From positions 248,001-312,000 of the forward strand of contig JAKPPT010000072.1 in the NCBI GenBank assembly GCA_029547205.1: a DNA stretch of 64,000 nucleotides. Reading direction: 5' to 3'. Position numbers and translations under genes: made by a program. Positions 28,257-28,565 of this stretch are shown piece by piece; position 1 is the stretch's first letter, and the number at the start of each line of letters is the position of its first letter. The stretch is from Spirochaetota bacterium (lineage in GTDB: Bacteria > Spirochaetota > Spirochaetia > Treponematales > UBA12059). The notes under the pieces were generated by a model. The model ran no database searches. It was not told the origin of the DNA and saw only the letters and a list, made by a program, of their open reading frames with translations.

Positions 28257-28377
28257 AGGTCCTCCTCTACATGCATATCAATATACTAATTTTCTGTAAT
28301 TATAGAATGACTAAAATCAAAAAAAATGTCAATTATTGAAACATTAAAGCTTGGAAAATTATTTCCGATACTAAATA

Positions 28378-28470
28378 TGTCAGAGTTGTCATAGTTCCCC
28401 TCCCAGTTTTCTATGCTTTTCTGACACCCTGCAGGGAAAGTGGCTGTTCGTTCTGAACAGCCACTTTTTT
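28378..28470 (+). ncRNA. Putative small RNA with C-rich loop and intrinsic terminator
   Basis: No gene on the plus strand precedes this region, yet it ends in a strong intrinsic terminator. Upstream, TGTCAGA (28378-28384) and TCTGACA (28420-28426) form an outer stem. CATAG (28390-28394) and CTATG (28411-28415) form an inner stem. The apical loop holds CCCCTCCC (28397-28404), complementary to Shine-Dalgarno sequences. A CCCTGCAGGG palindrome (28427-28436) separates this from the terminator. The promoter is not clear; GATACT at 28367-28372 is a weak -10 candidate. Confidence 0.45.
28437..28470 (+). terminator. Intrinsic terminator in the gap/PBP1A interval
   Basis: GTGGCTGTTC (28440-28449) pairs perfectly with GAACAGCCAC (28455-28464), 5-base loop, followed by six T. 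It faces the plus strand. Confidence 0.85.
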
Positions 28471-28565
28471 AGTAACAATAACTAGTTGCTATAGTTGATA
28501 TTGACTAGAATCCTCATCTTATAGTGTAATGGTCATTACAATGAAAAGGCAGGAATATTTTTAGT

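Follow-up and report, generated by a model that had tools for sequence, protein, structure and literature searches.

A predicted small RNA ahead of a terminator without a gene

What does an intrinsic terminator end when no gene stands before it? Such a terminator lies in the window, the 64,000-nt stretch of spirochaete DNA analyzed here, between gap and a gene for a PBP1A-family penicillin-binding protein. Since gap is on the minus strand and the PBP1A gene on the plus strand, there is no plus-strand gene directly before it, and the sequence is as the original prediction described. The terminator stem, GTGGCTGTTC/GAACAGCCAC (28440-28464), is followed by six T at 28465-28470 on the plus strand; a simple terminator scan did not pick up this element. 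The original prediction also held that the preceding sequence folds into a nested hairpin exposing the loop CCCCTCCC, and we found this loop at exactly the predicted position. The region from 28360 to 28476 folds at -40.6 kcal/mol, compared to -19.9 ± 3.1 kcal/mol for shuffled sequences (z = -6.7; 0 of 200 shuffles as good). We placed the 5′ end of the RNA from the promoter and the 3′ end from the T run, which predicts a transcript of about 95 nt (Table 1).

Table 1. Features of the locus and its flanking genes (positions in the window)
Feature	Position	Strand	Details
gap (glyceraldehyde-3-phosphate dehydrogenase)	27186-28256	-	TIGR01534, 433 bits
Apparent sigma28 (FliA) promoter	28345-28370	+	TAAA 28345-28348, 16-nt spacer, CCGATA 28365-28370
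Small RNA, predicted, ~95 nt	28376-28470	+	Covariance models R1 and R2, covariation
Main hairpin	28378-28426	+	Outer stem 28378-28385 with 28419-28426
Inner stem of main hairpin, CAUAG/CUAUG	28390-28394 with 28411-28415	+	
Apical loop UUCCCCUCCCAGUUUU, 16 nt	28395-28410	+	Single-stranded in the fold; alignment A2
Loop core CCCCTCCC	28397-28404	+	Inside the 16-nt single-stranded loop
Small CCC/GGG hairpin	28427-28436	+	Between main hairpin and terminator
Intrinsic terminator	28437-28470	+	Sequence, fold, covariation (helix 4)
PBP1A-family penicillin-binding protein	28566-31097	+	TIGR02074, 584 bits; outside the RNA

Conservation across spirochaetes

A DNA search of relatives gave matches in 13 of 58, with the similarity confined to the RNA itself. 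The first covariance model, built from 13 sequences, had hits in 169 of 294 genomes; 71 of the order's 83 genera are represented, nearly always by a single copy per genome. Among 67 aligned members drawn from several families, 95% of the stem cells are paired, and 23 of the 26 stem pairs show changes on both sides; the covariation score is 0.393, versus 0.179 in shuffles and no more than 0.078 when slid. The main hairpin varies on both sides at 13 of its 14 pairs (95 to 98% of cells paired), terminator helix 4 at 8 of 9, and the CCC/GGG hairpin is paired in 92% of cells. While the stems covary strongly, the loop seed UCCCCUCCCA shows almost no variation. There are 156 GU pairs and only 17 AC mismatches, so the RNA is encoded by the plus strand. 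The covariation search in relatives thus bore out the proposed small plus-strand RNA with an anti-Shine-Dalgarno loop.

A second covariance model found the RNA in 80 of 296 genomes of the phylum, other orders and classes included. One of these is a genome of 1,139,633 bp (G032), which we take to be Treponema pallidum. Scanning a public genome collection for the pattern returned at least 80 readable loci. Among the matches listed, the covariance model confirmed 50, all of them from labeled spirochaetes except for one unlabeled metagenome-assembled genome. The Gram-positive setting in which the original prediction had placed the RNA therefore finds no support: the organism is a spirochaete, and so are the confirmed relatives among the matches listed, apart from that one unlabeled genome. 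The window region and 15 related loci match no Rfam family at the gathering score, and we found no report of this RNA in the open-access literature that we searched. On comparative grounds, then, the conserved small RNA is real, spirochaete-wide, and previously uncatalogued.

Rfam matches at permissive thresholds were rejected as chance, the best below threshold being SorY (E = 0.026) and SorX (E = 0.12). The SorY likeness, probably fortuitous, belongs to the copy in a genome of T. denticola size (L047, 1556-1633). At another locus (L033, genome G107), a second perfect hairpin lies about 10 to 60 nt 3′ of the RNA and reads GGGGAGGGGAACC...GGTTCCCCTCCCC. It holds the loop sequence plus its complement and is possibly a decoy or sponge, or a product of chance.

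Promoter and neighboring genes

The copies share an upstream pattern: TTAA or TAAA, about 15 nt, and then CCGATA, 8 to 9 nt ahead of the model start. The full sigma28 pattern precedes 48 of the 67 homologues (0.3 in shuffles), and CCGATA alone lies upstream of 55. These elements agree with the mapped sigma28 promoter of T. denticola flaB2, which has TTAA at -35 and CCGATAA at -10 (PMC9481697). The RNA promoter is apparently of the sigma28 (FliA) type, the use of FliA being predicted from the motif.

Past the terminator, the following gene is preceded by a sigma70-like promoter at 30 of the 67 loci, against 0.5 expected. PBP1A is the downstream same-strand neighbor in at least 39 of the 67, across families; the upstream neighbors vary between families, and gap is among them in only 13. 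Since the following gene often starts from a separate promoter of this kind, we consider the RNA a free-standing unit with a stable neighbor. The original prediction had suggested that the RNA might connect glycolysis and wall synthesis. The glycolytic half is unsupported, with gap adjoining the RNA in so few loci and not among its predicted targets. For wall synthesis, the adjacency to PBP1A stands, but the start region of PBP1A contains no complement to the loop.

The RNA follows flagella

Among 89 genomes of the order, 68 carry both the RNA and fliF, 5 carry only fliF, 2 only the RNA, and 14 neither (Fisher p = 1.6 × 10−10, with the counts inflated by relatedness). FliA is present in 79 of the 80 RNA carriers of the phylum, and the single exception is a 71%-complete assembly. 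Neither FliA nor the RNA occurs in family f7, whose small genomes we read as Borrelia, a genus known to be without sigma28 (PMC11607428). The RNA is likewise missing from the flagella-less genera of family f4. We considered the presence of FliA alone as the explanatory trait and rejected it, because these f4 genera keep a FliA homologue and yet have no RNA; flagella, as represented by fliF, therefore track the RNA better than FliA does. One event may account for all the losses in f4, in which case the genome counts overstate independence. The f4 genomes with a FliA-family sigma factor and neither fliF nor the RNA are G030, G033, G036, G038, G044, G047, G050, and G053.

Predicted targets of the loop

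We ranked targets by pattern scans for the loop complement, UGGGAGGGGAAC, before start codons, where the match extends up to 12 nt. In the genome from which the window comes, GGGAGGGG stands before an ATG at seven places: fliF, fliE, fliP, ftsZ, a gene for a membrane-fusion protein, one site that belongs to no gene, and the antisense strand of the RNA itself. FliF, FliE, FliP, and FtsZ were confirmed by NCBIfam or Pfam, and the membrane-fusion protein was named from its sequence only. Across families, fliF starts carry TGGGAGGGGAACATG, the best cases having the full 12-nt complement; overall, the complement spans 9 to 12 nt at fliF and ftsZ starts. The loop segment CCCCUCCC is predicted to carry the repressive pairing. 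Among 503 genes near motility and division clusters in 20 genomes, 22 have at least 9 nt. These are fliF, ftsZ, and four others, one of which (an unassigned entry from G009) is again fliF, its start displaced. When ten whole genomes were scanned without bias for the strict complement, about 47 genic sites emerged, with fliF and ftsZ each found in 7 of the 10 genomes and no other gene recurring; fliS, murF, and fliP had one site each. The search for targets at ribosome sites that the original prediction had called for thus led to fliF and ftsZ. Sites at a murF-like gene and at fliI were seen again in another order. In the presumed T. pallidum genome, the match is 11 nt long at ftsZ and 9 nt long at fliF, and in T. 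denticola-type species both matches fall to 6 to 7 nt.

Co-folding of the window RNA with fliF yielded only -7 kcal/mol, by a method that cannot represent pairing between a loop and an exterior strand. Compensatory changes between loop and target are nearly absent because the loop barely varies. There is one possible pair, a single case, in G042 (loop GUUUCCCUCCCA in L084, fliF leader GGGAGGGAA in L208), and none was found in G057 and G069. Separately, genome G048 contains about eight copies of a repeated element that includes GGGAGGGGAAGAAGGAATG and a 21-aa reading frame; L388 and L394 are among its sites.

A natural control comes from ftsZ, which can be compared between genomes with and without the RNA. 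In family f4, ftsZ leaders carry 8 to 11 nt of complement where the RNA is present, versus 4 to 6 nt in the RNA-less, flagella-less sister genera. The mean pairing with 16S rRNA is equal in the two groups, about -11 kcal/mol. The ftsZ leaders of Borrelia and of family f13 have 4 to 5 nt, and that of G080 has 11 nt. Judged from these leaders, it is pairing potential with the RNA, rather than the strength of the ribosome site, that varies together with the presence of the RNA.

Alternative explanations

The stable neighbor raises the possibility of a cis-acting leader or attenuator in which the hairpin and terminator govern read-through into PBP1A. The same-strand adjacency across families speaks for this, as does the position of the terminator, about 30 to 110 nt upstream of PBP1A. 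We nevertheless consider it improbable: the downstream gene often has a promoter of its own past the terminator, the RNA is kept at loci where PBP1A is not adjacent, no alternative antiterminator structure was seen, and the matches of the conserved loop are to fliF and ftsZ, not to PBP1A. The opposite strand might be the functional one, with GGGAGGGGAACTATG providing a leader peptide ahead of gap with its ribosome site and start codon. In many genomes, this sequence does read without a flaw on the minus strand. Such a peptide is scarcely credible given that the reading frames downstream of GGGAGGGGAACTATG are unconserved, that gap is absent from that position in most loci, and that the plus strand is indicated by the excess of GU over AC as well as by the T run and by the promoter.

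The matches at fliF and ftsZ could also mean simply that these genes have strong Shine-Dalgarno sites and that the RNA acts elsewhere. Many of their sites are indeed good ribosome sites, with 16S pairing of about -11 kcal/mol. However, at equal 16S pairing strength, at least 9 nt of complement is present in 18 of 24 fliF and ftsZ sites and in only 4 of 61 other genes (p = 6 × 10−10, Fisher), and the ftsZ sites of RNA-less sister genera are equally strong but lack the complement. This makes the explanation quite improbable. A related idea is that the C-rich loop titrates, either capturing a protein or mimicking the 16S anti-Shine-Dalgarno sequence, and so acts on ribosomes generally; the nearly invariant loop holds CCUCC, the core of that sequence. 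We regard titration as highly improbable, since the full complement GGGAGGGG is not optimal for 16S pairing and turns up repeatedly at no genes other than fliF and ftsZ, and since it is missing from ftsZ in RNA-less genomes, where 16S pairing is unchanged.

A proposed feedback on basal bodies and division

We favor a different account and hold it with good confidence: the RNA is probably a free-standing, trans-acting sRNA, transcribed with sigma28, that blocks translation of fliF and ftsZ. We infer its expression, pairing, and repression from sequence. RNA polymerase with sigma28 (FliA) would transcribe the sRNA late in flagellar assembly, and the hairpin would present single-stranded GUUCCCCUCCCA. 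This would form a duplex of up to 12 nt with UGGGAGGGGAAC in the ribosome-binding sites of both fliF, encoding the MS ring, and ftsZ, encoding the division ring. The MS ring is among the first-assembled parts of the flagellum. Because the pairing covers the Shine-Dalgarno sequence beside the start codon, initiation of translation should be blocked. In some species, further targets may include fliE, fliP, fliS, fliI, or murF.

Spirochaetes have small, fixed numbers of periplasmic flagella, which they use for motility and shape. It is generally known that sigma28 becomes active once the hook-basal body is complete (restated in PMC11607428), so the RNA would provide negative feedback: with a flagellum finished, no new basal bodies would be started and division would be held back. 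The wider idea is an RNA checkpoint from flagellum completion to cell division, in which one conserved sRNA shuts off both fliF and ftsZ through sigma28 and thereby gives a joint count of flagellar number and division. We offer this tentatively, as a possibility that falls a little short of an even chance. A conserved sigma28 sRNA directed at fliF and ftsZ would offer spirochaetes a definite means of restricting their flagella and of keeping them in step with division. The RNA is also a new family for a whole bacterial class. Few spirochaete sRNAs have been catalogued; one review table lists 6 (PMC9029176).

Comparison with known small RNAs

An unpaired CCUCC-type loop complementary to the ribosome sites of its predicted targets places the RNA in the class of anti-Shine-Dalgarno sRNAs with C-rich loops. 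Members of this class are RNAIII and RsaE of Firmicutes, sX13 of Xanthomonas, and the CCUCCUCCC-motif sRNAs of alphaproteobacteria. Like the spirochaete RNA, they have a single-stranded loop able to cover GGAGG-type ribosome sites; the spirochaete RNA differs from them in its bacteria, promoter, and predicted targets, and it has no Rfam match at the gathering score.

In E. coli, UhpU, MotR, FliX, and FlgO are controlled by FliA and modulate flagellar output, as proposed for the spirochaete RNA, but they are UTR derived and conserved in some Enterobacteriaceae (PMC10578931). The spirochaete RNA, in contrast, is intergenic and spirochaete-wide, with its own promoter and terminator and an anti-Shine-Dalgarno loop. 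The main text on the E. coli sigma28 sRNAs does not mention fliF or ftsZ (PMC10578931). C. jejuni FlmR (CJnc170) is a short FliA-dependent sRNA of 47 nt with flgE as its proposed target; a feedback role on genes earlier in the flagellar cascade has been suggested for it, and cells overexpressing it are less motile (PMC11187230). Its feedback logic is the same as that proposed here. Neither fliF nor ftsZ is mentioned in the main text on FlmR and FlmE (CJnc230) (PMC11187230), and we found no sequence link between these two C. jejuni RNAs and the spirochaete RNA. In logic, then, the closest known systems are FlmR and the E. coli sigma28 sRNAs, and in chemistry, the C-rich-loop sRNAs of Firmicutes and Proteobacteria.
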